NCBI GenBank assembly: GCA_021209225.1
Contig: JAJOIW010000070.1
Coordinates: 1 to 40,120, forward strand
Reading direction: 5' to 3'
DNA length: 40,120 nucleotides
From: Verrucomicrobiota bacterium
GTDB lineage: Bacteria > Verrucomicrobiota > Verrucomicrobiia > Limisphaerales > JAJOIW01
Translations under genes and position numbers: made by a program
Part shown: one piece after another, positions 5,651-24,178 of the stretch
Layout of the letters: every line of letters begins with the position of its first letter
Numbering within the stretch: the first letter of the stretch is position 1
Notes under the pieces: model-generated
Databases searched by the model: none
What the model was told of the DNA's origin: nothing
Seen by the model: the letters and a program-made list of their open reading frames with translations, nothing else

Positions 5651-6664
5651 TCAGAAGAGTCTCCCCGCTATGGTGTTGATGACATTGAGCGGGCCAGTGT
5701 CCTCGAGTGTTTCGGTGGCCTTTTCAATTTTCTGCAAAGTGAGTTTCAGGTTGTTGAAAAACACCTGGTCGTTGACCAACTGACCGACTGAACCATTTCC
5801 CTGGTTGATTTTTTCCAGGATCTCGCGCAGGTTCGTCATCGATTTTTCCATCTCATGATACAGTTTTTTCTGTGTCATGAGCTGGCCCAGGGTTCCTTCT
5901 CCGTTCTTCACGTCCTGCATGACTGATCTCGCGTCTTTCAGTGTCTCTCTGGCCTCACTTAAGGCAAGGTCCAGGTTGTTGCCGGTTTTATCAAATGTGG
6001 ACTCCAGGCTTTTCACCAGATCCATCGTTTCGGTAAAGAGACTATCCTGCATGATCAGCTTGCCCATGGTTCCCTCTCCATTCGAGATAGTGAAGGAAAC
6101 CTTCTCGACATTTTCCAGAGTGCGGGTCAGGCGGGGAGTATTTTCTTTGACGAAATCCGCCAGAGGCGCCAAAAGGTCGCCAAAGCTGTCACCCGAGAAA
6201 GATTTTGTCATATTCTCCACCCCGCCGGCGACGGACTCCATGCGCTCCATCAGGTCCCCGAGATCAGGAAGGTATTTGGATGTGAGCACCGCGTTTTCAT
6301 CCGCCAATGGTGCCGCGGCTGACCCGAATGAAAGCGAAACGAACTGGGATCCCAGCAATCCCTGGAACCGGATTTCCGCTGTGCTGTCGGTTTTGATTGG
6401 GGCTCCTTTTTCAATTTGCAGGACAACCTCGACTTTGCCGGGCTGTTGATCAGACCAGCCGATCCTGGAAACACTCCCCACAGGGATCCCGCCCAGTTTA
6501 ACCGGGTCTCCCTCTTTGAGATCTCCGGCGCTGTCAAAATACGAACGCAACGAAAATCCTTTTTTCATAAAATTCAGTTCTCCGGCCAGTTCGATGGCCA
6601 GGACACCAGCTATCATGGCAAGCGCCACAAACAGGCCGATACGCGTCTCCAGGGATCCTTTCAT
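5651..6664 (-). CDS. mlaD: MlaD/MCE-family lipid transport substrate-binding protein
   Basis: 'LETRIGLFVALAMIAGVLAIEL...DSAGDLKEGDPVKLGGIPVGSVSRIGWSD...GLLGSQFVSLSFG' typical MCE domain with N-terminal TM. Confidence 0.92.
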   Translation of the reverse strand: MKGSLETRIGLFVALAMIAGVLAIELAGELNFMKKGFSLRSYFDSAGDLKEGDPVKLGGIPVGSVSRIGWSDQQPGKVEVVLQIEKGAPIKTDSTAEIRFQGLLGSQFVSLSFGSAAAPLADENAVLTSKYLPDLGDLMERMESVAGGVENMTKSFSGDSFGDLLAPLADFVKENTPRLTRTLENVEKVSFTISNGEGTMGKLIMQDSLFTETMDLVKSLESTFDKTGNNLDLALSEARETLKDARSVMQDVKNGEGTLGQLMTQKKLYHEMEKSMTNLREILEKINQGNGSVGQLVNDQVFFNNLKLTLQKIEKATETLEDTGPLNVINTIAGRLF

Positions 6665-7440
6665 AAAATGGTATTATCGAATTTAAAGTTGATATGCAGA
6701 AAGTCTTTTATTTTGCGGTTTTGATTCGCCCAGATTTCTTTTGGTGTGCCGATGGCCACAATTTTCCCATCGATGATGATGGCGACTCTGTCGGCAATGC
6801 CCTGCACCAGGTCCCGATCGTGAGTGACCATAATGGTTGTGATAGCCAGGGTGTCCCTGAGTCGGCATATTTCCTGACCAATGGTGACGGCCGACACCGG
6901 ATCGAGCTCGGAAGTCGGTTCATCGTAGAGAATGAGTTGTGGCTCAATCACCAGGGCCCGCGCGATGGATACCCGCTTTTTCATACCCCCGGACAGTTCC
7001 GAGGGGAATTTCGCCTCCACTCCCTCCAATCCGACAGCTTTCAGTTTGGCGGAGACGATTCGACCGATCTCTTTTTTGGATTTGAGCCGGTGTTCCTCCA
7101 GGAACAGGCCCACATTTTCACCCACCGTTAAGGACGAGAGGAGTGCCCCCGACTGGAACACCATGGCCACACGTGTCTGGTCCGCCCGGCTCAGATCCGG
7201 GTGTCGATCATTGATCCAGATCTCCCCACTGTCGGGCGATTCCAAACCGGATATCTGGCGCAGCAGCACGGATTTTCCGCTCCCCGATGGACCCATGATG
7301 GCAAATATCTCACCCGGCTCAACCTGGAGATTGACATTTTTAAGCACGACTTGAGCGCCGTAGGATTTGCAGACGTCTTTGAGGCGAACCCGAACCGCTT
7401 CCGAGGATACAGAATTTTCTGACTGGGATGATATGGGCAT
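6661..7440 (-). CDS. mlaF: MlaF-like ABC transporter ATP-binding protein
   Basis: Walker A 'GPSGSGKS', signature 'LSGGMKKRVSIARAL', Walker B 'LILYDEPTSELDP'; overlaps mlaD by ATGA. Confidence 0.93.
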   Translation of the reverse strand: MPISSQSENSVSSEAVRVRLKDVCKSYGAQVVLKNVNLQVEPGEIFAIMGPSGSGKSVLLRQISGLESPDSGEIWINDRHPDLSRADQTRVAMVFQSGALLSSLTVGENVGLFLEEHRLKSKKEIGRIVSAKLKAVGLEGVEAKFPSELSGGMKKRVSIARALVIEPQLILYDEPTSELDPVSAVTIGQEICRLRDTLAITTIMVTHDRDLVQGIADRVAIIIDGKIVAIGTPKEIWANQNRKIKDFLHINFKFDNTIL

Positions 7441-7444
7441 GACT

Positions 7445-8215
7445 TTATAGGATTATCATGAGGATCCGCGTTGCCAGGTAGTCAAAAATCAGGATGAGAA
7501 CCAGCGAATAAACAACAGCTTGAGTCACCGATTTTCCAATGCCCCGCGGTCCCCCTGAAGTTTGCAGCCCCATGTAACAACTCACCACTGCGATCAATAC
7601 CGCAAAGACCACACTTTTAAGCACCCCACTGAGAATGTCCCGAATGTCAACCAATGAATTCAAGCTGTTGAAGTATGCTCTCCATGGGATATTGATGTCC
7701 GGATTCCCCATAGAGACCAGAGCGCCTCCCACCCAACCAAATAAATTCGCAAAGATGACGAGCATTGGAACCGCCACCGTCATCGCCACAACTCGGGGCA
7801 GCACCAGATAATGGATCGGGTTGATCGACATGGTGCGAAGTGCATCAATTTCCTGGTAGACACGCATTGATCCGATTTCCGCCGCAATCGCCGATCCCAC
7901 CCGCCCCGCCGCCAGCACCGACATCATCACAGGGGATAATTCCTTGCACAGGGACAGCCCAACCAGGCCACCGACGGTTGACGCGATGCCTCTCTCAACC
8001 ATGACGGGCCCACTCTGCAGTGCTATAACCCCTCCAATGAAAATGGCCAGTATGCATGCCATCAACAGGCTTTCATTGCCCATCACATAGAACTGCTCCA
8101 GAATCTTCTTCCGGTGCCTCCAACATAAGGGGAGCGCCCTGAATGTCTCCAGCCCCAACAATATCATCTCTCCAAATTTCCTAAACATACATCTCCAAAT
8201 TGTTCCCGGATCCAA
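7445..8215 (-). CDS. mlaE: MlaE-like ABC transporter permease
   Basis: 'GGVIALQSG', 'KELSPVMMSVLAAGRVGSAIAAEIGSMRVYQEIDALRTMSINPIHYLVLPRV' is the MlaE family signature. Confidence 0.94.
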   Translation of the reverse strand: MDPGTIWRCMFRKFGEMILLGLETFRALPLCWRHRKKILEQFYVMGNESLLMACILAIFIGGVIALQSGPVMVERGIASTVGGLVGLSLCKELSPVMMSVLAAGRVGSAIAAEIGSMRVYQEIDALRTMSINPIHYLVLPRVVAMTVAVPMLVIFANLFGWVGGALVSMGNPDINIPWRAYFNSLNSLVDIRDILSGVLKSVVFAVLIAVVSCYMGLQTSGGPRGIGKSVTQAVVYSLVLILIFDYLATRILMIIL

Positions 8216-9763
8216 TTACATATCAGTACTCTGCGATCTTTGGCTCTGCCGCCAGACAGGAAAGGAAAAAACCTTATATACTTTTTCCTCAGTTGTCGAT
8301 TCGTGAGACATCATGCCATAGGCAAATTTCCAGGATTTTCTGGTGGGACTTTTCTGCCCGTGAGCCAGATTAAGGAAGGTGGTCCATTCTTTTTCCGAAC
8401 GATCCGCCTTGGCCTTGGATTGGTAGAGTGTCCAGAGAGGGGACCATGCCCTCTGCAACTCCTCATCCAGAGGAAAGATCGGCTCCAGGAGGGCCAGAGT
8501 TTTAAAGTCCCTTGTTCCTTGGGTATCGGTTGATGTATGCCATAGCGGCCACATGGATTGTCTGTGACTCTCCTCGCCGGACTCCTTATTCCTCAGCCTC
8601 AGATCCGAATAGAGAAAAAAGAGGATTTGATCCCGCCTTCGATAGAGTGTGGAGGCATCGGTGATATTCTGGCGATAAAGTGGCCACAGAATGGATTTGG
8701 AGTGAAGTGATCCTTTTTCCCCGATGCTGAAGAATGGAAGGATACGATTGAGAGTCTTGCCCTCGCCGCGGGCAAAGACCACCAGGGGCCAGGGGAATCC
8801 CAGTTCCTTGTATTTTTCACCCCGGTCCTCCGTCCAGTTCAGGAATGGCCAAAGCAGGGTTGTTGAATCCCGGTCATCCGACCGAAGCACGCGAAAGACG
8901 GGCAAAACCGCAACGTCTGTCAGATATCTGCGATCCGGATTCTCCATAGTAGCCCAGGAAATAAACGGCCACAGAAAGAAACCGTTGTGATACCCATCCA
9001 CGGCCTCCGGATCATTCCATGAATTGGTGATCACCCTGGCATCCTTGGATTCCAGTCCAAACAAAGGCAAAACGCCCCAGCCCTGAATCCCATCACCCCG
9101 ACGCAGGTGGAAAATCGGGTAGAGGACATTCCAGGTCTCGTAATCCTTCTTCTCGGTCCTTGCGTAGAGGGGGAACAGAACAAACTCGATATGTTTTTTG
9201 AAGAGTCGATTGTCCAATTCGCCGTAGATCGGGACGAATGCCCAATACCCGTCGGTAGTGGAGGATGGCTGTTTATAAAAAAAGAAAGGAAACAGGGTGA
9301 CTCCTTTCGGCTCAGGAGGTGAATCCGATTTTTCCGTATCCCGGGCGGTCTTTGTCCAGCTCAGAAATTGCAGCACCTGAACCCTGGTTTCATCTCCGTA
9401 GCGATTGCGGGTGATAAATGGGTAGAAAATGTTCTGCTCGGAATTTTCCGAAGCGGGGTCTGCTGTGGATACCCAGATGGGTCCAATGTCCAGACTGTTT
9501 TGTGTCCATTTGCCCTCGCGGCTGAAAAGCGGTCCCAGAGATCGGTCCGAGAGAATGGAGGGGGAATCGTAGGAGACGCCCAAAGAATAAGGTGCTGATC
9601 CCTGAGCGTTGCCCACCATTGTTCCGGATGCCCACAACAGAATTGCTGCAAGAATGCACCAGAGCTTCCCGTTTTTTCCGAACCGACTGTTTTGCGAATT
9701 CCGCATCTCTCCTGAGAATGTGTCCCCTTTGGGATTCATCAATACCTGAACCGCGCGAACCAT
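8216..9763 (-). CDS. Hypothetical beta-repeat exported protein, first gene of the mla operon
   Basis: 515 aa with signal-like segment 'LWCILAAILLWASGTMVGNAQG' and many short recurring 'LFPFF/LFPLY/LYPIF/VLPLF/LWPFI/LLWPFLNW/ILWPLY/MWPLW' segments; stop abuts the mlaE start. Confidence 0.7.
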   Translation of the reverse strand: MVRAVQVLMNPKGDTFSGEMRNSQNSRFGKNGKLWCILAAILLWASGTMVGNAQGSAPYSLGVSYDSPSILSDRSLGPLFSREGKWTQNSLDIGPIWVSTADPASENSEQNIFYPFITRNRYGDETRVQVLQFLSWTKTARDTEKSDSPPEPKGVTLFPFFFYKQPSSTTDGYWAFVPIYGELDNRLFKKHIEFVLFPLYARTEKKDYETWNVLYPIFHLRRGDGIQGWGVLPLFGLESKDARVITNSWNDPEAVDGYHNGFFLWPFISWATMENPDRRYLTDVAVLPVFRVLRSDDRDSTTLLWPFLNWTEDRGEKYKELGFPWPLVVFARGEGKTLNRILPFFSIGEKGSLHSKSILWPLYRQNITDASTLYRRRDQILFFLYSDLRLRNKESGEESHRQSMWPLWHTSTDTQGTRDFKTLALLEPIFPLDEELQRAWSPLWTLYQSKAKADRSEKEWTTFLNLAHGQKSPTRKSWKFAYGMMSHESTTEEKVYKVFSFPVWRQSQRSQSTDM

Positions 9764-9958: not shown

Positions 9959-11650
9959 GTGAGTGAACCCGGAAAATGGATATGTTGCTGGTTGAATATG
10001 TGGTGTCGCGCCATTGTGGGGATATTCTGTGCATCGATTCATCCGGTCGATGCTGGCGTGCAGGAGGTGATGCAGGTCATTCAACGCCATTGTGTTGAAT
10101 GTCATTGCCCGGATGGCGCCGGCCCGTTTTCTCTGACGACCTATCGCGACGTGCATAAGAGGTCGCGGCAAATCATGGAAGTCATTCGCGAGGGCCTCAT
10201 GCCACCCTGGTTGCCGGACAATGCCCCAGGTATTTTTGCAGGGGAAAGGCATGTTCCGCAGTCAGATCTGGACATTCTGAATCAGTGGTATTCTCAGCTT
10301 TCAGAACACAGTACCAGCGACTTGGATGGAGTGGAGTGGTCTATCCACGGTAAACCTTTCAAGCGGACTCCGGATGCATCCTATACCACTGAAGCTTATG
10401 TCCTGATGCCCGATGGTCTGGATGTTTATCAGAATTTTCTCATCCCCATCGATCTGAACCGGCAAAGATACCTGGAAGCTGTGGAAATCATTCCTTCAAA
10501 CCGTCGGGTTACTCATCACGTGCTGATGAAGATTGACGAAAAAGCACTTTTACGCCATCGCGTTGGCGATCGGAAGACCCTGCTTTCTTCGGATATGACG
10601 GACGTTTCGGCTTCGGGTCATATTATCGGCTGGCAGCCTGGACGCGATTTTTCCCCATTTCCAGAAGGACTCTCCTGGCCATTGAAGGGAGCTGTTGATC
10701 TGGCATTGGAGGCTCATTTGCGCCCCTCAGGCAAAAGCGAGTCGGTTCAGTTCACTGTGAATCTCTACTTCACGGATAAGCCACCTACTCGATTGGTCCA
10801 GAAGTTCGCTCTAGGTAACCTGGATTTCACAATTCCGGCTGGCGAGAAGGCATTTGTGGTGCGGGATCACTTCAGGATTCCAGTGGCTGTCCGGATCTAT
10901 TCCATTCTGCCACACGCGCATTATGTGGCGCGGTCCATTCGTGCTGAAGCGGTGATGCCGGATGGAAAGCGGTTGAACCTGATAGAAATCCGGCACTGGC
11001 AATTTGACTGGCAGAATTTGTTCACCTATCGCGATCCTGTCGAATTGCCGGCTGGAACTGAGATTCAGGTGGAATTTGTTTACGACAATTCGGCGGATAA
11101 CCTGAGCAATCCATTCAACCCACCCCGCACCATCCAATATGGCCCAAACACCTCAGATGAAATGGCTGAAGTATGGATCCAGCTGGTGTCGTTGAAGGAA
11201 TCTGAAGCAACCACCCTCGGCGAAGCCATTGATCGAAAGCTCATTCACCTGCTCAAAAAGAAATTTGAACGTGAAATCGCCGATTTTCCTCAGAATGCCG
11301 TCGCATTGGACAAGCTTGGGAGATGCCTGTTTTTTGAGCGTCGTTATGAAGAAAGTTTAAATTATTTCGGGCGTGCCTTAGCAGTTGATTCAGGCAATTT
11401 CCTCACCCATTACTATTGCGGATTGATCTACCGCATTAAAAATCAGTTGGATTCTGCCCAATATCATTTTGAGGAATCCGTGAAGTTGAATCCCAAATAT
11501 TATAAGAACTATGGCAATCTGGGGACCATATTCCTTGGGCGCAGGCAATATGCGGATGCGCGTCGGGCGTTTGAAAAGGCACTTGAATTGAATCCGGAGG
11601 ATTCCCTGGCTGCTGGGGTTTTGGAAAAGCTTCACCGCGCCGGTTATTGA
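9959..11650 (+). CDS. Copper type II ascorbate-dependent monooxygenase-like / haem-c-like protein with C-terminal TPRs
   Basis: 'IQRHCVECHCPDGAGPFSLTTYRDV' (CxxCH), 'RVTHHVLMKID', 'PHAHYVARSIRAEAVMPDGKRLNLIEIRHWQFDWQNLFTYRDPVELPAGTEI', then TPR repeats. GTG start. Confidence 0.78.
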   Translation: MSEPGKWICCWLNMWCRAIVGIFCASIHPVDAGVQEVMQVIQRHCVECHCPDGAGPFSLTTYRDVHKRSRQIMEVIREGLMPPWLPDNAPGIFAGERHVPQSDLDILNQWYSQLSEHSTSDLDGVEWSIHGKPFKRTPDASYTTEAYVLMPDGLDVYQNFLIPIDLNRQRYLEAVEIIPSNRRVTHHVLMKIDEKALLRHRVGDRKTLLSSDMTDVSASGHIIGWQPGRDFSPFPEGLSWPLKGAVDLALEAHLRPSGKSESVQFTVNLYFTDKPPTRLVQKFALGNLDFTIPAGEKAFVVRDHFRIPVAVRIYSILPHAHYVARSIRAEAVMPDGKRLNLIEIRHWQFDWQNLFTYRDPVELPAGTEIQVEFVYDNSADNLSNPFNPPRTIQYGPNTSDEMAEVWIQLVSLKESEATTLGEAIDRKLIHLLKKKFEREIADFPQNAVALDKLGRCLFFERRYEESLNYFGRALAVDSGNFLTHYYCGLIYRIKNQLDSAQYHFEESVKLNPKYYKNYGNLGTIFLGRRQYADARRAFEKALELNPEDSLAAGVLEKLHRAGY

Positions 11651-11811: not shown

Positions 11812-12849
11812 ATGCGTATGGCGAATATAAAATCAATTGGAGCAGGAGTATTGGCATTGGCAATTGGGGTGGGTTCTTCCGGAGCTGCGGAAGTTCGGGT
11901 TGCATGGTCGGTATGGACTGGGTGGATGCCATTCAAATTGATTGAGAGCAAAGGTTTTCTGGAGAAGAGAGCCGCTGAATTGGGAGTGGAGGTGAAGCTT
12001 GTTGAGTTCAAGGGGTATATGGATTCCGTTCAGGCATTTGCGGCGAAGAAGGTGGAGGCCTGTGCCATGACCTGCATGGAGGCTCTCCAACCTGCCTCCA
12101 GTGGCATTCCGACGACGGCTGTTCTGGTGAATGATATCAGTCATGGTGGCGATGGAGTCCTGTTGCGCGACGGAATGACTCTGGCGGATCTCAAGGGAGA
12201 AAGAGTGCTGCTCGAACAGTTTTCCGTCAGCCACTACCTGCTTTTCCGCGCCCTCGAAATGAATAACATTCCCGAAAACGAGGTGCGCCTCGTGAATATT
12301 CCCGGGGATGACGCAGGCAAGGCGTTTCTCACAGATTCTTCGGTGAAAGCCGTGGCCACCTGGAATCCACACCTCTTTCTGGCCAGCGAAAGCCAGAAAG
12401 GATCCGTCGCTTTCAGCAGCAAGGACATACCGGGTGAAATCGTCGACCTTCTGGTTTTCAATTCAGATGTGCTGAAAGAAAACCGGCGTGCCGCCGAGGC
12501 GGTCGTTCTCGCCTGGTTTGATGCCATGAAAATGATCCAATCGCCCACAACAAAGACCGAAGCCATCCGAATTATGGCCGAAGGCGCTGGTGCCTCAGTG
12601 GAAGAATTTGAGAAAATGCTGGGTGGAACCCGGCTTTTCACTCTGCCTGAAATGACATCCACCTTTTTCAACTCCAACAAATTGAAGTCCACCATGACGA
12701 AGATCCGCGGGTTTTCATTTTCCAAGGGATTGATCACGGACAAGGATTTTCAATTCGGGTATGCTCCATCACTGGATGGTTTATTGAATTTTGATCCGGG
12801 TTTCGTGAATATGGATCAACTGAAATCTGCCACGCTGCCTGGTCTCTGA
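11812..12849 (+). CDS. NitT/TauT-type ABC transporter substrate-binding protein
   Basis: Signal peptide, then 'AEVRVAWSVWTGWMPFKLIESKGFLEKRAAELGVEVKLVEFKGYMDSVQAF', typical SsuA/NMT1-like fold. ATG at 11812 preferred over the 5'-extended ORF from 11647. Confidence 0.87.
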   Translation: MRMANIKSIGAGVLALAIGVGSSGAAEVRVAWSVWTGWMPFKLIESKGFLEKRAAELGVEVKLVEFKGYMDSVQAFAAKKVEACAMTCMEALQPASSGIPTTAVLVNDISHGGDGVLLRDGMTLADLKGERVLLEQFSVSHYLLFRALEMNNIPENEVRLVNIPGDDAGKAFLTDSSVKAVATWNPHLFLASESQKGSVAFSSKDIPGEIVDLLVFNSDVLKENRRAAEAVVLAWFDAMKMIQSPTTKTEAIRIMAEGAGASVEEFEKMLGGTRLFTLPEMTSTFFNSNKLKSTMTKIRGFSFSKGLITDKDFQFGYAPSLDGLLNFDPGFVNMDQLKSATLPGL

Positions 12850-12894: not shown

Positions 12895-13887
12895 ATGCGA
12901 ATACAAAGCCCACTTTCCCGGCAATGGCACATCATTCTTGGAGTGTTGCCAATTTGCCTGGCCATCGTCGTTTATGGATTGGTTTCCCGGGCCCGGCATC
13001 AGGAAAACCCGAAGGATAAATTAACGCCCGGCTTGAAACAATTTGTTGAAGGTTGGCAGCGTGTCATGGGCAGAACCTCCCGCGAAATGCGGGAATATAC
13101 CGTTGTCGAAGGCGATACTATCCAAACCATTGCCCGACGATTTGGCCAGTCTGATGACATTGTTGCGGAAATCCAGCCCACCAATGGCAAAGACTTGGTT
13201 GACTGGGATGATTCGATTCGGGCATTGGAAGTGGGTGAGGTTCTGAAAGTGCCGGTTGAGGTTGGCGTTCCATTCCTGCAGCAGTTCCTGATACTGGATA
13301 CCCTGCAAAGTCTCAAACGATTAGCCTCGGGGATAGCGGTTGGTGCAGGAGTCGCTCTGTTATTCGGGCTCCTCATGGGAAGTTTCACAGAAATGCGGGC
13401 CTTGTTCTACACATCGATCTCCGCTCTGGCCCGCATACCTCCCCTGGCGATTCTGCCAATTATCTTTTTGATACGCGGAGTGGGTGAGGACGCGAAAATA
13501 ATCATCATTGCTTTGGGTATTTTTCCCACAATGGCCATGGACATCCTGTTGCGGGTTCAGGCACTGCATAAAGAACTCATCATCAAGGCATACACCTTGG
13601 GTGCCTCCACCACAGAGGTAGTTTTTAAAGTCATTTTCCCGCAGGTGATGCCGGGCTTGATTCACTCGATTCGTCTGGCATTGGGTCCTGCCTGGGTTTT
13701 CCTGATAGCTGCCGAGGCCATTGCCTCCGAGGCCGGGCTTGGGTATCGGATCTTCCTGGTGCAACGCCAGCTGGGAATGAACATCATTCTCATCTATGTC
13801 GTTTGGATCATTCTCATAGGTCTCATCATGGATGTAGGTCTCAAGGCTATCCTGCTTTGGAAATATCGATGGGCAGAAGGCAAATAA
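12895..13887 (+). CDS. NitT/TauT-type ABC transporter permease with inserted LysM-like domain
   Basis: 'SLKRLASGIAVGAGVALLFGLLMGSF...ISALARIPPLAILPIIFL...IIIALGIFPTMAMDILLRV...KAYTLGASTTEVVFKVIFPQVMPGLIHSIRLALGPAWVFLIAAE'; LysM-like 'YTVVEGDTIQTIARRFGQSDDIVAEIQPTNG...LEVGEVLKVPV' between TM1 and TM2. Confidence 0.9.
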   Translation: MRIQSPLSRQWHIILGVLPICLAIVVYGLVSRARHQENPKDKLTPGLKQFVEGWQRVMGRTSREMREYTVVEGDTIQTIARRFGQSDDIVAEIQPTNGKDLVDWDDSIRALEVGEVLKVPVEVGVPFLQQFLILDTLQSLKRLASGIAVGAGVALLFGLLMGSFTEMRALFYTSISALARIPPLAILPIIFLIRGVGEDAKIIIIALGIFPTMAMDILLRVQALHKELIIKAYTLGASTTEVVFKVIFPQVMPGLIHSIRLALGPAWVFLIAAEAIASEAGLGYRIFLVQRQLGMNIILIYVVWIILIGLIMDVGLKAILLWKYRWAEGK

Positions 13888-13891
13888 AACC

Positions 13892-14842
13892 ATGACCGCT
13901 TCAACACAGACTGACATTATTTCTCCGGATCGCGATGATAGCCAGGTCCTCGCCCTGCGTTGCCGGGGAGTGACGCAAAGCTATTTTGATACCCGGCTGG
14001 GCCGGCAGAGAGTTGTCCTCAATGGAATCGATCTCGACCTCCATCCCGGCGAATTCTGCTCTGTTATTGGCCCGAGTGGATGCGGAAAAAGCACCTTCCT
14101 CCGACTGATCCTGGGCTCCGAAATGCCTAAAGACGGGGAGTTCTCCATCATGGGCCGGATGCCTGCCGCCCCCAATCGGGACCGTGGAATTGTCTATCAG
14201 AAATACTCACTTTTCCCGCATTTGAGGGTCATTGATAACGTGGCATTTGGTCTGGAGCTTGAGCAGATTGCATTTGCGATGAAGTGGATCTGGTATCCGG
14301 GATACCTCGTGAAGCGCAAACACTTTGTCGAACAGGCAATGGAATTCCTGGGTAAAGTTGGCTTGGCCGAACATGCGCACAAATACCCACATCAATTGTC
14401 GGGTGGCCAGCAACAACGCGTCGCTATCGCTCAGGCACTTATTATGCGGCCTCAGATTCTTCTCATGGACGAACCGTTTGGGGCACTGGACCCAGGAACC
14501 CGGGAAGAAGTGCAACACTGGTTGCTGGAACTGCATGCCAAAGAAAAAAACACCATCCTTTTCGTCACTCACGATCTCGAAGAGGCCATGTACCTCTCAA
14601 CCCGGATTCTTCTCCTCAGCCAGTATTATGAGCACTCACCCGAGGGCCGCAGAGAGGGTTCCCGCATCGTCGCTGATATCGTCCCCAGACCGCAGGGCAT
14701 AGAACGCCATCACTGGAAAACCCATCCTGAATTTTCTCTCAGACTCGGCCGGCTTCTGCAGATGGGGTTCCGATCCACTCAGTTGCTTAAAAAATCTGAA
14801 TTCTGGATGTCCCACCAACACAGCATCTCCCCGACAACCTAG
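13892..14842 (+). CDS. NitT/TauT-type ABC transporter ATP-binding protein
   Basis: Walker A 'GPSGCGKSTFL', signature 'LSGGQQQRVAIAQAL', Walker B 'ILLMDEPFGALDP'. Confidence 0.93.
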   Translation: MTASTQTDIISPDRDDSQVLALRCRGVTQSYFDTRLGRQRVVLNGIDLDLHPGEFCSVIGPSGCGKSTFLRLILGSEMPKDGEFSIMGRMPAAPNRDRGIVYQKYSLFPHLRVIDNVAFGLELEQIAFAMKWIWYPGYLVKRKHFVEQAMEFLGKVGLAEHAHKYPHQLSGGQQQRVAIAQALIMRPQILLMDEPFGALDPGTREEVQHWLLELHAKEKNTILFVTHDLEEAMYLSTRILLLSQYYEHSPEGRREGSRIVADIVPRPQGIERHHWKTHPEFSLRLGRLLQMGFRSTQLLKKSEFWMSHQHSISPTT

Positions 14843-14998: not shown

Positions 14999-17900
14999 AT
15001 GCTCCCTATGCGGGAGTACCAGATACCCATGTGTTGTGCAGTGAGAGAATTGGAAAACGGCCATTTCTGGTCGGAGGTCATAGGTATTGAGGAAGTCACC
15101 GTATACGAAAGAAACGACGAAAATGCGCAGCAAGGCATCCGCGGTCGCCTTGAAAAAATTCTTGAGGAATTCGAACCCTATGAGATTGGCAGCCTGGTTG
15201 CGACCAACAGCGTGCAGGTTGGGACCTTATCGATGGAGATTCAACCGGCCTCACGCAATCGGATCTGGCAGGACCCTCAGTCCATCCGGCTTCATTACCT
15301 GTGGTGGGCACTCCCCAGCGGGGGACTTGGTGCGCGCGTCAGTGAATTCAACCTCCAGCTATTCGCTCAGGACATAGAACAGTTGGAAGACAGAATCCGG
15401 CGCCATGTTCTGATCTCGCTGCGAAGTATCATTGAAAATAATCAATTGGCGGCATTCCGCGCCTTTCATCGGGTCCGGAATGTTGCTGTGTCCACCATAC
15501 TGGTCAAATATCAGTCCAGAACGCCCCTGGAAATTGAAAAAGATCCCACCAGTGAAGGAGCCCGCTCCGAATCCATCCTCACAAAAGTCGCCACCGACCT
15601 TCACCAGGAACAAATGAGCCCCATTTGGTGTGTGGACGAATCCCTCAACCTCCTCAAAGAAAATTTCACCAGTTCAGGTATGGAATCCATTCTTCTGGTG
15701 GGAGATTCCGGTGTCGGAAAGACTGCTTTATTCCGGGAACTGTGCCGGCTGCGGGACAGTCTCGGTCTGGCAGATTGGAAGTTCTGGATGACAACCGGCG
15801 CTCGACTGGTCTCAGGACAGTCTGGCTTCGGCATGTGGCAGGAACAATGCATCAAACTGGTTCGCGAAGTCGCCGGGAAAAAAAATTCTTTTCCACGTCG
15901 GGAATCTGCTGGAACTCATTCAATCCGGGCGCAGCAGTCACAATAAACGGGGAATTGGTTCGTTTCTGAAAGAATCCCTGCAACGCGGAAATCTGATTGT
16001 GGTCGCCGAATGCACCCCGGAACAACTGCACATCATTGAGCAGGAGGATCCCCAGATCCTGAGTGTTTTCAAAGTGCAGAAAGTGCGGCAGCCAAGCCGT
16101 ATCCAGATCCAGGAAATCCTGAAAAATTTCTCGGCTCACTACCGACCTCAAATTGAAATCTCCAGTGGAGCTATCGAAAGGGTGGGGGAACTCCACCAAC
16201 AATTTGCCACTTACTCAGTCGCGCCCGGCCGCCCGCTCCGGTTTTTACGGAACCTGCTGGATGACCGAACCCCCCCTGACATCCCATTCTCCTGCCCGGA
16301 AGGCCGCTCCTCCCGCTGGCTCTCACCCGGATCCCGAATCTGAAACTGGCATCCTGTCAGATCCACTGGATGAGGATGAGGATGAGGATGAAGGTCAGGA
16401 TGAAGGTCAGGATGAACCAGCCATTGAAATCGAGTTGACCCACGCCATGGAATCCGGTCTGAGTCCAGATGAAGTCGATCCCAGCCAATCCAAAGAGCCT
16501 CCACTGGAACCCAGACTCAGCATAGAAGATGTGACAAAAGGATTCTCGGAGGAAACCGGCTTGCCATTCTGGATGCTGGAAGCCTCCGAGCCGCTGGATC
16601 TGCACAAAGCCCGCGAGTGGTTCACGAGTAAAGTCATCGGACAAGCCCTCCCGGTGGAGAAGGTCATCGACCTCCTGGCTCTCACCAAAGCCGGCCTCAA
16701 TCGACGTCACAAACCCATTGGATCCCTTCTTTTTATTGGCCCTACAGGCGTGGGAAAAACCGAACTTGCCAAAGCCCTGGCCCGCTTTTTATTTGGTGAT
16801 GAGAATCGTATGATCCGCTTTGACATGGGGGAATTCAGCGATCCCATGGCACATATTCGATTGATTTTCAGTCAGGGTCAGGAGGAGGGGTTATTGACAG
16901 CCCGGATCCGGGAACAACCCTTTTCCGTGGTCCTTCTGGATGAGTTTGAAAAAGCGAGCGCGCGCGTTTTCGATCTTCTGCTGCAGGTTTTGGGTGAGGG
17001 GAGATTGACGGATGCGGTTGGACGCGTGGCCGATTTTTCCAACACGGTCATAATCATGACCTCCAATCTGGGGGTGAAGAATTATCAAACTGGCTCATTA
17101 GGATTCGGGGCCTCCGGTCGGGTGGATCCTGTTGAGCATTTCACCACGGAAGTGAAAAAATTCCTTCGTCCGGAGATGTTCAATCGACTCGACTCGGTTG
17201 TCGCATTCGGGCCCCTGGACCGCGATTCTGTCCGGCGCATCACCCGGTTGCATTTGGAGAATTTAAAATGGAGGGATGGTCTCCGTGGCCGGGGAGTTGA
17301 TCTCTACCTCGATGAGGGAATTGTCGATCAGATTGTTGAAGCAGGCTTTGATCCACGCTACGGGGCCCGCCCATTGAAACGTGCCATTGAATCGATGATT
17401 CTCCGTCCACTGGCAGCCCGATTGACCTCGCAGTCAACCGATGTTGCCCTCAAGGCATCCGTTCGATTGATTCCCAAGGACGTCCGAAAAGGGGCCACTA
17501 CGATGTTTGATTTTGAGATACGCACTCAACAGGACCAATCCGGCCGCCCGATTCCATCGACGCGAACCCGCCAATCGACGATCTCAGCGGCAGGACGGGT
17601 TTCCGAATTGCGTCGATCCGTGCGTGGGATATTCAACAAAGCACCCATGCTGACTCTCCAGAGCCGACTCAATCGCCTGCGCATGCTGGTTGAGCGTCAT
17701 CATCACCTCCCAAGCCAGCCATCCGAAGTGACTCAAGCCCAGCACTCAATAGACAAAATTGAACAATGCTTTCACCAGGTCACCCAGGCAATTAAAGCAA
17801 TTGAAAGTCTGGAACGTTGCACATTGAAGTCCGTATACACCATGGGTGAACTCGACGACGTCAGACTTCTCACTCAACTCGGTGAATTGCAATCCACTTT

Positions 17901-18558
17901 CCATTCTCTGCAGAAAGACATCTTCCGGATCAACTTTCAGGGAAATCCCGATCGGGTGGTGATGGTTCTCTATGGTCCTGATCGGACGGTAATCCGTCAC
18001 CTATTCCGGGCATACCTCACATTTCTCCGCCAACGTGGCTGGAGGCTCGATCTTTACCTCATTGAAAGCCGCGATGGACATCACTATCTCATGCCTCACC
18101 AGCCTGAGGATCCGGATGTGGATGCCGCCATAGAAAATCCCAGGTCTGGCCTGGTTCTTGAGGTGAACGGTAAGGATTCCTGGTTTTTTCTTTCACTTGA
18201 GAAAGGAATGCATCGGTCCAGTCGATCGAAATCCGATCCTGCCAGTTATGTGGAGGTCTCCTCCTCAGCCATTCCTCAGCCAGTGAGCGGCGAAGGGAAA
18301 CCAGTGCCTCTCCTGTCAACGGATAAAAAATCCTTCCTGGATTCGGGTTCTGAATCCTTGCTTCATGTGCCTGAGGGCTTTGGGGATCGTCAGTTTCGAT
18401 ACAATGGGCCGGAAGTGCGGCGGATTTTCTTTTCCGAATTCAAGGTGCAGGATAGTCTCATGGGGCGCCGCGGATATATTGGATCTGTTGAAGTGGAGAT
18501 TGCCAGGCTCATGACTGAAAGACTGGATAAAGAAATAGAAAATCAGTTTAAACTTTGA
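14999..18558 (+). CDS. Clp/HSP100-like double AAA+ ATPase with C-terminal PCRF (class-I release factor)-like domain; two apparent frameshifts
   Basis: D1 Walker A 'GDSGVGKT'; D2 'GPTGVGKTE', 'VVLLDEFEKA', 'IIMTSNLG', 'FNRLD', 'YGARPLKRAIE'. Reconstructed from ORF 14999..15946 (frame 2), 15999..16343 (frame 3) and 16153..18558 (frame 1), with likely +1 errors at A8 (15878-15885) and C7 (16270-16276). Confidence 0.88.
16369..16416 (+). repeat. Short tandem repeat encoding an acidic linker (DEDEDEDEGQDEGQDE)
   Basis: gatgag repeated, followed by two tandem copies of ggtcaggatgaa, in frame within the D1-D2 linker of the first Clp-like gene. Confidence 0.85.
17597..18280 (+). other. PCRF-like (class-I peptide-chain release factor domain 1/2-like) region of the first Clp-like protein, without GGQ
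   Basis: 'FLRQRGWRLDLYLIES...GLVLEVNGKDSWFFLSLEKGMHRSSRSKSDPASYVEVSSSAIP' parallels RF1/RF2 'aeargWkvEv...IkG.gaYg.Lk.EsGvHRvqRvpatesqgriHTSaatVaVlP'. No GGQ in the remaining C-terminus. Confidence 0.6.
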
Positions 18559-21161
18559 AGTTTATCATTCCAGTTTATGTGGAGGAGACGAATGAGGAAC
18601 CAACCAATGGCCTCAAGACTTACTCAGTCCGTCCCTTATTCCAGGAGGGACTTGAGCGTCGCGGACCGGTTTTGGCTCGCGTCCTCGCCCGCTTCTCCGT
18701 GGACCTGCGCAAGATGCTCAAGAAAGAATCCATGGAATATGATCAGCGTGGACTCATGGATTGGGGATATGCTCCCGACTTCCACGAGGATACCATCGAG
18801 CTCAATCTGGATCTTAAAAAAAAATCTGTGCGCCGCTCATTTCTGGTCATCTGGTACGATCAGGGACCAGGCCGATTGGCATATATTCCAGAAGCCTCAC
18901 TCACCTTTGAATTCCGTCGGGGCGACTCCCTTCCCATCAGAGCCGTCGAAGCGCTCACTGAAGAATTCCGCCGAAGATCGCAACTCGAGGAATCCATTCC
19001 CTGGGCCGGGCCCACGAATACCCGGATACACAGCTGGACCTCAACCATCGAGATCAATGTCGATGTCAATGTGCCACCCAAGGAACGTCCCGACCATGAC
19101 ATCTTCTCCATATTGGGTATGGAAGAGGATATGTCTGGTGACATGGAACTGGAAAATGTCGGCCATTGTTTATCCGAACTCTATCCGGAGGGCTTGAACC
19201 GCACATTCGGGCGAGACCGTGAAGTCATCCGGTTATTGAATCTCATTCAATTCGGCAGCAACCGGCCGGTTGTCATTATCGGTCAGACACTTTCTGGTAA
19301 GACAGCGCTTGTGCATGAGGTTGCCTGGCGGCTTGCGGATATGCGCCGCAAGGGCTCACGTGAGAGTGAGCGGCTCTGGCTGATTTCTCCTCAGCGGCTG
19401 ATATCGGGAATGTCCTATGTGGGTCAGTGGGAGAGCCGCCTCATGGCCATTCTGAAAGAGAGCCGCAGACGTCGGCATATCTTATACTTTGATGATTTGC
19501 CTGGGTTGTTTTCTGCGGGTCAGACGGCGGATTCCGGACTGAGTGTGGCGGATGTGATGCGTCATTCCATGGAGCGGCGGGACATTCGGGTGGTGGGTGA
19601 GATTTCGCCCGAGGCATGGAGGAAACTGAGGGAGCGTGACCGGAGGTTTGCGGATTTATTTGAGGTAATTCATTTGGATCCCACCAACGAGGAAGATACG
19701 GTGTCGATTATCATCGGGGTGCAGCGCGAACTGGAATTCCGCAATTCCTGTGAATTCAATCCGCACGCGGTCCCTATGATCATGAGGTTACTGAAGCAGT
19801 ATGCGAGTGATGCGGCGTTTCCGGGGAAAGCCGTCCGCTTCATGGATCAGCTGGCACTGAAAAATCGTGGCAGGGAGATCGGAGTTTCCGAAATACTGGA
19901 GCATTTCAGTTCCCAGACCGGGTTGGATCTGGAGATGTTGGATATGCGGATTGCCCTGGAACGGTCTGTGGTTGAGAAGCGCCTGGGGGGAATGATTGCT
20001 GGTCAGGAAAAGGCCGTTCAAGCGATGGTGGATACGGTGCTGATGGTGAAGGCGCGTCTGAATGATCCGAGTCGCCCGGTGGCATCCATGTTATTTCTTG
20101 GTCCGACAGGTGTTGGAAAGACGGAAAGTGCCAAGGCGTTGGCCCGGGTTTTATTCCAGAATGAGGATCGATTGATCCGGTTTGATATGAACGAATTTCT
20201 GGATCCTGGTTCAGCCCAGCGGATGGTGGGAACTCCCTTCCGTGACGAGGGATTGCTTTCGAGGAAAGTGCGTCAGCAACCATTCAGTGTGATTCTGTTT
20301 GATGAAATCGAGAAGGCAGCTCCGGAAATCTTTGACCTGCTGCTCGCGGTTTTGGGCGAAGGCCGATTAACCGACTCCATGGGCCGGACAGTCAGTTTTG
20401 CGAATACAGTGGTCATCATGACATCGAATCTCGGCGTTAAGCAGGCACATTCCAGAGTCGGCTATGGCAGCGACGGCGCCGAAGAAATCGAATTGTCCTA
20501 CCTTTCATCAGCCCGGCAATTTTTTAAACCTGAATTTTTCAACAGACTGGATTTTGTGATTCCCTTCCGGAGTCTGAGTATGGTTGAGAGTGAGCGGGTT
20601 GCCAGGATTCACCTCAACCAGCTGTCGCAGCGATTTGGGATCCAGGAGAGGCGATGCCTGGTGACTTTTCAGCATGGGGCAATGGAGTTGCTGGTGCGCC
20701 GTGGATTTCACCCTCAGTATGGTGGCCGGGCGCTTAAGCGGGTGATTGAGAAAGACCTGGCCGGGAGTTTGTCCCGCCAGCTGGCGATTCATCCCGCGAA
20801 TCAGCCCCTTCATCTCCTGGTGGATGCCGACAGTCAAAACTTTATTATTCATTCCCAGCCCTTGTCCTATGCTGGTGAAAACCTGGAGGTCCGGAGGTTT
20901 GTCGAACGACAGAAAATTCACGGTGTCGCCAGCTGGGGTCAGTGGATAGTCGGGAATTGCCGGGATCATTTGCAGAGCTTGGCGCCAAAAGACCTTCGTT
21001 TGGCTCATGAGAGTTCTCCTGAGCAGGTGGATTATCTCATGATCCTGGAACAGAGCCACAAGGTTGGCGAGGGACTCAATGCCATGTTGGAATACCTCGA
21101 TTTGGACAGTGCCAATGAAGCTCGTCCAGTCCTTCTGCCCAACCTGACGTGCCCGCCCTGA
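18555..21161 (+). CDS. Clp/HSP100-like double AAA+ ATPase (second paralogue)
   Basis: D1 'GQTLSGKTA', 'ILYFDDL', pore-loop-like 'GMSYVGQWESRL'; D2 'GPTGVGKTESAKALA', 'VILFDEIEKA', 'VVIMTSNLG', 'FFNRLD', 'YGGRALKRVIE'. TTG start overlaps the preceding TGA. Confidence 0.92.
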   Translation: MKFIIPVYVEETNEEPTNGLKTYSVRPLFQEGLERRGPVLARVLARFSVDLRKMLKKESMEYDQRGLMDWGYAPDFHEDTIELNLDLKKKSVRRSFLVIWYDQGPGRLAYIPEASLTFEFRRGDSLPIRAVEALTEEFRRRSQLEESIPWAGPTNTRIHSWTSTIEINVDVNVPPKERPDHDIFSILGMEEDMSGDMELENVGHCLSELYPEGLNRTFGRDREVIRLLNLIQFGSNRPVVIIGQTLSGKTALVHEVAWRLADMRRKGSRESERLWLISPQRLISGMSYVGQWESRLMAILKESRRRRHILYFDDLPGLFSAGQTADSGLSVADVMRHSMERRDIRVVGEISPEAWRKLRERDRRFADLFEVIHLDPTNEEDTVSIIIGVQRELEFRNSCEFNPHAVPMIMRLLKQYASDAAFPGKAVRFMDQLALKNRGREIGVSEILEHFSSQTGLDLEMLDMRIALERSVVEKRLGGMIAGQEKAVQAMVDTVLMVKARLNDPSRPVASMLFLGPTGVGKTESAKALARVLFQNEDRLIRFDMNEFLDPGSAQRMVGTPFRDEGLLSRKVRQQPFSVILFDEIEKAAPEIFDLLLAVLGEGRLTDSMGRTVSFANTVVIMTSNLGVKQAHSRVGYGSDGAEEIELSYLSSARQFFKPEFFNRLDFVIPFRSLSMVESERVARIHLNQLSQRFGIQERRCLVTFQHGAMELLVRRGFHPQYGGRALKRVIEKDLAGSLSRQLAIHPANQPLHLLVDADSQNFIIHSQPLSYAGENLEVRRFVERQKIHGVASWGQWIVGNCRDHLQSLAPKDLRLAHESSPEQVDYLMILEQSHKVGEGLNAMLEYLDLDSANEARPVLLPNLTCPP

Positions 21162-21814
21162 AAAAGACTACCGCTCGTCCGGGGGGGGCAGCGGCTCATA
21201 AAATTGCCCAGGCGCGGGAAAGATTCTCTCAATCCCTGGGTGATCTGAAAACTCCCGACAATTTCGAAATGCGGGAACGTGAGTTGGAATCCTGGGTCAT
21301 GGAAGCCTCATTCCTTCACCATTCGCTTCAGTCCCCAGTTCGTGATAAATGCCGGTTCCGGGTTTCCTGGAATTTCCCGTCCGATGGTATCCTCGCACAT
21401 TTCCATCAATTCCTTCAGGCCTGGATGAGTGCCATGGGAACTCTGGTGCGTTTTGAAAAAGTGCCAGATGAAGACCTGAAACCTGGAGTCAGGATATCTG
21501 CGAATGAGGGATCTTATCATTTTGTTCTGGATGGTCCCGGGAGCCGGATGATCGCAGGTATTGAGAGCGGTTACTGGATGATTGAGCGCTCAACCGGCGA
21601 AATCGGGCTGGTGATTTTGACCCAGCATGTGGACATGCCCGACGGCCAGATCAGCGGGAAGGTCTTGAGGCAAATCCGCGACGTGGCACCGGGCATGGAT
21701 CTGCGTACGGGCATGGAGATCACACCCACGATTCCAACCAGTCATGTTCGTCAGATGATTCTATCCCAGATTCCAATTCCAACCCACGGATGGGAGCATG
21801 AACATGTCGACTGA
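21149..21814 (+). CDS. Free-standing divergent PCRF-like protein
   Basis: 'AHFHQFLQAWMSAMGTLVRFEKVP...VRISANEGSYHFVLDGPGSRMIAGIESGYWMIERSTGEIGLVILTQHVDMPD' resembles RF1 '[43 protein letters not shown]' in spacing and hydrophobic pattern; no GGQ. GTG start overlapping the upstream gene. Confidence 0.55.
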   Translation: MPALKKTTARPGGAAAHKIAQARERFSQSLGDLKTPDNFEMRERELESWVMEASFLHHSLQSPVRDKCRFRVSWNFPSDGILAHFHQFLQAWMSAMGTLVRFEKVPDEDLKPGVRISANEGSYHFVLDGPGSRMIAGIESGYWMIERSTGEIGLVILTQHVDMPDGQISGKVLRQIRDVAPGMDLRTGMEITPTIPTSHVRQMILSQIPIPTHGWEHEHVD

Positions 21815-24178
21815 TAATCGAATCCACGTTTTTCTCTGGAACACGATCGAGGGAATCTTCACTGGCATGACCCTCGGCCAGGAAGAGAATGTATCAGCGA
21901 TGGCGGATTCCCCGAAAGCGGTCCTGAAACAGATTCGTGAATGGGCTGAAGAAATTGCCATGAACCAACCTTGGAAGCTGAATTTTGATCTCAGCAATCC
22001 CCGCCAATCCCACGTGGTGACCAAAGTCCGGCCCGAGATTCGAATTCGCGGGAAGATGCAGCCCTATTCGGACCAACTTACGATGAAGTTTCCATGTGTG
22101 CTCCTGGATGATGGGCCCGGGCTGGTTCTCGTGAGTTGCCCAACTCTCGATATAGAATTTTCGTTAACCGATGAATCTGAATTGTCCGGATTGGGCAGTC
22201 ACCTCCTGGCATCTCAACTCTCTGGAAAACCCATCGCTGAAATTATGAGCTTTGGAGGTCCCCTTCACGGTCAAATCGAGGGACTCACACTCAAAAGATC
22301 CGGTAAGCAGCGCAAAAAAGATCCTTTCAATCTGGATTCTCATGAGGGTCAGGCTTTGCGCCATATCTGCGAGCCCTTGTTGACCAAACGTCGGGGATTG
22401 AGTTTTGAGACAGCCGCATTTGGGCGCGATGATGAGGTTTCCCGACTGACAGGAATACTGCAGAAAGAAGGCAGCAGCCTCATTCTGGTCGGTGAATCAG
22501 GTGTGGGTAAAAGCACTATCCTCAAACAGGCCGTCAAAAAACTCTCCCGCACTCCAGTCACTAAAGAGGAGGACAATGCACAGCCAAACCTGGATCCCAT
22601 TAACAGCCGGGAACGATTCTGGGTCTCAAACGGCTCCCGTATCATCGCGGGGATGAAATACCTGGGGGAATGGGAGCAAAGATGCGAGAATCTCATCGCT
22701 GATCTCAATCAAATCAGTGGCGTGCTTTGCCTCGAAAGCCTGCTGGAAATCATTCGAATCGGTGGACAATCCCCGGATTCCAGTGTCGCGGCCTTTTTCC
22801 AGCCCTACCTGCAGCGGGGTGATCTGAGGATTTTATGTGAAGCGACTCCAATCGAACTGGACCGGGCCAAACGATTGCTTCCTGGCTTTGTGGGCTTGTT
22901 TCAGATTGTGAAAATTCAGGAATTGGAGACAGCCCGAGCGATTCCTGTGTTGGAAAAGATCTGTGACTCTCTGACCGCAAGCCAGCAGGTTGATTTTGAA
23001 TCGGGAGTTCCAAGGCTCGTCTACCATCTCTTCCGCCGATTCCAGTCATATGCCGCGTTCCCAGGACCTGCAGTCAGATTCATTCGAAGTTTGCTGCAGA
23101 GATCGGAGGTGAAAAACTCCAGAACTATTTCCCGAAGCCTGGTCCATGAAGAGTTCTCACGCCTCACTGGTTTGCCTCCCATTCTTGTTCGCGATGATAT
23201 GCCCATGGAAATCGGGTCCGTGCGTCAACAATTGCGCTCTGTTGTTCATGGTCAGGACCGTGCGGTCGATACCTTGAGCGAGGTGGTTCTTAAACTCAAA
23301 GCCGGATTGAATGATCCCAGGCGGCCACTGGGTGTTTATCTTTTCTGTGGTCCAACAGGCGTTGCAAGACTGCCCTGGCCAAGGCCTTGGCTGACTACCT
23401 CTTCGGGCAGGGGAAAGATCCCGACTCACAAATCACTGCCGATCGTGAGACTCTGATCCGTATGGATATGAGTGAATACAACCACCCGGGAGCCGCTCGA
23501 CGATTGCTCGAATCCCTCGACGGTTCCCCATCCGCCTTCATTAAAAAAGTCCGGCAAAATCCTTTTTCAGTGGTCCTCCTGGATGAAATTGAAAAAGCCG
23601 ATGAGGAGGTGTTCGATCTCCTCCTGAATGTGTTGGACGAAGGATTCGTCACCGACCCACTCGGGCGGGTTGCCTACTTCCGCAGCTCCATTATCCTCCT
23701 CACCTCGAATATTGGCGCTCAAAGCGGGGCCCGGGCCGGATTCGAATCCCCCCAATTTCCCGATTTTGAAGCTGAGGTCCTGAAGTTTTTCCGCCCGGAA
23801 TTCTTCAACCGGCTCGATGGGGTCATCGCTTTCGAGCCACTGACAAAACCTGTCATCCGGACCATCGCCAACCTGGAATTGCAAAAACTCATGTCCCGTC
23901 CAGGGCTCCAGAATCGCTCCATCCATCTCCAGTACGATCAAGCTATCATAGATTGGGTCGCTCAGACCGGTTTTGACGCCAAATATGGAGCGCGTCCCCT
24001 GCTCAGACGCATTGAAGAAAGTGTATCGATCCCGTTATCCAAGTGGCTCCTGGCACATCCCACCCTTGATCATATCACCATCCATGTGCGGTTCGACCTC
24101 ACCGGCCAGGTCTCCTTTGAACTCAATCCACCAGAGGATACTCACAAAAATCCCATTCCTTCTCCCATTCCATCCTAG
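21798..24178 (+). CDS. Clp/HSP100-like double AAA+ ATPase (third paralogue), one apparent -1 frameshift in the D2 Walker A
   Basis: D1 'GESGVGKST', 'GMKYLGEWEQR'; D2 'GPTGV|GKTALAKALADYLFG' (restored by one extra G near 23363), 'VVLLDEIEKADEEVFDLLLNVLDEG', 'ILLTSNIG', 'FFNRLD', 'YGARPLLRRIE'. ORFs 21798..23456 and 23387..24178. Confidence 0.9.

Follow-up and report, generated by a model that had tools for sequence, protein, structure and literature searches.

A LysM domain is present inside the permease subunit of a NitT/TauT-type ABC importer from a Verrucomicrobiota bacterium, where it lies between the first two transmembrane helices (TM1 and TM2); among the genomes searched, this architecture was found in one genome only. 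The window, that is, the whole stretch of DNA analysed, comprises 40,120 nucleotides, and the importer occupies the following positions in it.

11812-12849, + strand: periplasmic substrate-binding protein, NMT1/SsuA type (NMT1_2, 51.9 bits)
12895-13887, + strand: ABC importer permease of NitT/TauT type with LysM insertion, 330 amino acids (BPD_transp_1)
12919-13005, + strand: TM1 helix, residues 9-37 (AF2 model; hydropathy peak at residues 13-31)
13096-13254, + strand: LysM domain, residues 68-120 (Pfam, genome search, HMM of the order's LysMs, AF2 and Foldseek)
13099-13287, + strand: inserted segment as judged against relatives, approximately residues 69-131 (alignments)
13270-13383, + strand: helix of residues 126-163, with an amphipathic start (DTLQSLKRL) followed by TM2 (AF2 model)
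13892-14842, + strand: ABC ATPase of the same operon (ABC_tran, 108.4 bits)

The LysM domain in the permease is real, as confirmed by profile searches and by fold. The segment YTVVEGDTIQTIARRFG...ALEVGEVLKVPV is in frame and corresponds to residues 68-121 of the open reading frame 12895-13887. The Pfam LysM profile (PF01476, curated cut-off 20.9 bits) scored 22.8 bits on the whole protein and 26.9 bits when the linker was scanned alone, with 43 of the 43 profile positions covered, and a six-frame search of the genome with the same profile recovered 13096-13254 at 23.6 bits, again above the cut-off. A further HMM was made from the order's 55 other LysM domains, with the query's own left out. 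The linker scored 23.6 bits against it, whereas the best of 20,000 shuffled versions of the linker reached 10.9 bits, and a chance match is thereby ruled out. When the LysM segment was modelled by AF2 in an alignment with 46 of these 55 domains, a beta-alpha-alpha-beta arrangement was obtained (E2-7, H14-20, H25-30, E54-59) at moderate confidence (mean pLDDT 75.8). Foldseek returned LysM structures as the top matches for this segment, 4uz2 being the first, with a probability of 1.00 but an E-value of only 0.03. Residues 65-124 are mostly of low confidence in the full-length AF2 model because no aligned relative covers the insert there. The first-pass annotation had read a LysM-like domain at 13096-13257 from the letters of the DNA and had suggested a Pfam scan and an AlphaFold-type model as checks; both bear the reading out, and the placement it gave, between TM1 (residues 9-37) and TM2 (helix 126-163), agrees with the AF2 model.

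It is very improbable that the LysM is an artefact of assembly or of chance. The genome is a draft, 58% complete and in 248 contigs, and one Clp-like gene nearby is split across three reading frames; against this, the permease has an uninterrupted frame of 330 codons, in which conserved permease sequence flanks the insert on either side, and the LysM itself is complete and beats all of the shuffles.

The permease scored 60.5 bits with BPD_transp_1 (cut-off 26.4) and gave a full-length AF2 model with a mean pLDDT of 83.6, the core of which shares its fold with CmpB (Foldseek E-value 4e-8), NrtB and MetI. Its gene stands in the operon order binding protein, permease, ATPase, and the N-terminus of the binding protein reads as a signal peptide, as expected for the periplasmic partner. 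All three genes occur in this order at 11 of the 14 relatives' loci compared; two other loci (L072 and L073) have no binding-protein match within the stretch compared, and L071 has a weak, distant one only. Since the operon contains one permease gene, the channel is probably homodimeric and would then carry a pair of LysM domains. Importers of the NitT/TauT family, namely NrtBCD and CmpBCD from cyanobacteria, TauC/SsuC and SaoP (NF040733), share this permease core and these operon partners; unlike the query, the relatives examined are all without a LysM between TM1 and TM2.

Urea is not established as the substrate. The nearest NCBIfam model of the binding protein is TIGR03427, at 276.8 bits and hence below its cut-off of 333.9. 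Transporters of the TIGR03427 type are found near urea carboxylase, as at the Rhizobium tumorigenes plasmid locus L070, and have a similar binding protein and permease in the same gene order; the query differs from them in its sub-threshold binding protein, and the plasmid permease has no insert. In the 58%-complete genome, urease alpha gave no match and the urea-carboxylase profile gave partial matches only, and no urea carboxylase was found beside the binding protein at the locus.

Other genes of the window were also surveyed. On the minus strand, 6661-9763 encodes an MlaE-type permease and ABC ATPase pair adjoining a 515-aa protein (8216-9763) for which no Pfam match was found. The 563-aa product of 9959-11650 has TPR repeats at its C-terminus, and its first ~440 residues have no Pfam match at 1e-4. 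Downstream of the transporter, the Clp/AAA-type gene at 14999-18558 matches its intact neighbour (18555-21161) in three successive frames and is either broken by frameshifts or the product of an assembly error. The AAA run to which it belongs (14999-23453) includes two AAA_2/ClpB_D2-small proteins that share 43% identity in the AAA_2 region. A third protein matches AAA_16 weakly and is 29% identical to the second, and a 221-aa protein with no Pfam match lies between the AAA genes.

Comparison with related permeases locates the insertion. The motif RHQENPKDK is common to the relatives from Acidobacteriota and Poribacteria, which continue as ...DYRL-WVDTWASAKRLG without a LysM; at the same site the query reads REYTVVEGDT...VPFLQQFLILDTLQSLKRLASG. 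The aligned relatives from the same order and the same class have an equally short TM1-TM2 loop or small variants of it. As the relatives are uninterrupted at this site, about 62 residues are inserted between TM1 and TM2 of the query. A Pfam scan of the 33 aligned permeases detected LysM in the query and in none of the 32 relatives. In a tree calculated without the LysM, the query falls nearest to the Acidobacteriota and Poribacteria rows, with support that is fair, not strong, and with long branches; a single gain of LysM in the query's lineage would be the simplest reading. With a GC3 of 0.52, close to the 0.55-0.60 of the rest of the gene, the insert does not stand out as a visibly foreign patch. 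Mobile-element insertion was considered and rejected, as the only repeats present are a direct one of 10 nt and some weak inverted ones, none of them bracketing the insert cleanly. Nor is a recent copy of another LysM supported, identity to the permease LysM being 21-42% among the LysMs compared.

The TM1-TM2 loop of these permeases is tolerant of insertions. Two same-class permeases (L036, 745-2202, and L037, 703-2193) carry ~200 extra, unrelated residues in it, and a scan of L036 found no Pfam domain in the extra loop. The LysM may be a neutral passenger that such a loop tolerates and that has not been selected for any function in the transporter, and its occurrence in one genome only, which leaves no second species in which selection would show, would be in keeping with this; yet it has been retained at full length, with its motif residues and its Asn, despite the low identity to other LysMs, which suggests that it has persisted for a while under constraint. 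Neutral insertion seems unlikely to us.

The search for further BPD_transp_1 proteins with a LysM insertion, also suggested by the first-pass annotation, yielded none in the order, class and phylum samples or among the best plasmid matches. With the N-terminal 152 amino acids as the query, searches of 320 genomes from the order, a class sample of 384 genomes and a phylum sample of 388 genomes turned up no further carrier. Of the phylum matches that seemed to span both TM1 and the LysM, five were DnaK-like proteins (chance matches) and three were ordinary LysM proteins; the other was a permease that lacks the insert. The LysM segment alone gave weak matches in the order, and those inspected were ordinary LysM proteins. 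No carrier was present among the best 20 of 669 plasmid records; the match to the best plasmid relative covers 282 query residues in 220 codons, identifying it as a permease without the insert. Viral contigs gave no match, and a scan of genome contigs with six short peptide patterns, by which distant carriers could be missed, found no second carrier. A literature search, mostly of papers outside subscription, returned no description of a LysM in an ABC importer permease.

The side of the membrane on which the LysM lies follows from the topology of the permease core. In this superfamily the EAA loop is cytoplasmic; in the present permease it lies around residues 222-240, and counting the helices back from it in the AF2 model places the TM1-TM2 loop outside. 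By homology to MetI, NrtB and CmpB, the loop with its LysM would thus be periplasmic, in line with the non-cytoplasmic location that the first-pass annotation required. In the AF2 model, the LysM is joined to the TM2 helix by only five residues, and from this tether we estimate its reach at about 4-5 nm from the membrane. The Gram-negative sacculus lies farther out than that.

LysM domains commonly bind sugars of the cell wall. Whether the domain could bind glycan was assessed by comparison with characterized LysMs. In AtlA of E. faecalis, a single LysM is enough for binding, and alanine at T13, L14 or I39 costs 60- to 80-fold in affinity for GlcNAc5, the largest losses observed (PMC4083421). 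These positions align with T75, I76 and L111 of the permease, which are conservatively kept, and the buried Asn of AtlA (N32) aligns with N97, so the glycan pocket could work. The fold and the main binding residues, conservatively kept, are common also to P60_tth (4uz2/4uz3), an endopeptidase of T. thermophilus; AtlA and P60_tth are wall hydrolases with several LysMs, whereas the permease LysM is single and acidic and has a longer H2-S2 loop. Its pI is 4.1 and its net charge -6, compared with a median pI of 10 for the order's 55 other LysMs, none of which is below 5. For the LysM region of AcmD, with a pI of 4.2, binding to cells is favoured by low pH (PMC3738550). The H2-S2 loop forms one wall of the LysM glycan pocket (PMC4356369); the N-to-G distance, which reflects its length, is 17 in the permease and 10-13 in 51 of the 55 others, the remaining four distances, of value 4, appearing to be artefacts of the search pattern.

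An alternative use of the fold would be as a protein-protein module that contacts or steadies the binding protein and binds no glycan. There is a parallel in the P2 loop of MalF, a large extra periplasmic domain in the E. coli maltose importer that steadies the docking of the maltose-binding protein; both are extra periplasmic domains in a loop of an importer permease, differing in fold and in the loop used. Compatible with such a docking role are the short tethers by which the LysM is attached at the periplasmic face, its unusual acidity for the order and the unrelated longer loops of other class permeases at the same site (for example, the ~200 residues in L036 and L037). The pocket retains GDTI and the Leu that precedes EVG, however, and the binding protein is acidic as well (pI 5.2, net charge -7), so a charge-driven contact with the LysM is not favoured. 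We regard docking as somewhat unlikely.

Anchoring of the permease to peptidoglycan, or sensing of the cell wall, had been put forward in the first-pass annotation, and part of this idea can be retained. The pocket residues are kept and the genome has wall-related genes: genes reading as MraY and FtsW adjoin a LysM protein, and another contig encodes a protein with three LysMs and an amidase-like C-terminal part. On the other side stand the single acidic LysM, the longer H2-S2 loop, the short tethers close to the membrane and the absence, among the genomes searched, of a second carrier that would show selection. A firm anchor in particular is weakened by the acidic domain, the longer loop and the five-residue tether, and anchoring or sensing is at present something that we infer from the sequence. 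Direct coupling of the permease to the wall, in which contact between LysM and peptidoglycan would position the importer or modulate how active it is according to the state of the wall, is improbable in our assessment.

The explanation that we favour over docking or a neutral insert, tentatively and at a little less than an even chance, is a weak and conditional contact with glycan. An otherwise ordinary NitT/TauT-type permease would have gained a LysM in its periplasmic TM1-TM2 loop within the lineage of the present genome, and the homodimeric channel would present two LysM domains beside the docking face of the binding protein. These may contact GlcNAc-containing glycan, either nascent or low-lying peptidoglycan strands or soluble fragments, and such contact would bias the position of the importer against the wall; a firm anchor would not be expected. 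We infer the homodimer, the glycan contact and any effect on transport.

There is already a known case of an ABC transporter subunit that bears a LysM. The nearest precedent found is TagH (Llmg_1623) of Lactococcus lactis, the ATP-binding protein of a teichoic acid exporter, which carries one LysM that is likewise acidic, with a pI of 3.8 (PMC3738550, Table 1). TagH is the ATPase subunit of a Gram-positive exporter, whereas the present LysM interrupts an importer's permease, and it is this location that would be the new part. Binding of wall glycan by the domain, if it occurs, would mean that the permease of an importer is tethered to peptidoglycan, and would provide a natural test of whether contact with the wall affects the place and the working of ABC importers. 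If no glycan is bound, the protein would be an example of a TM1-TM2 loop that freely accepts whole domains.
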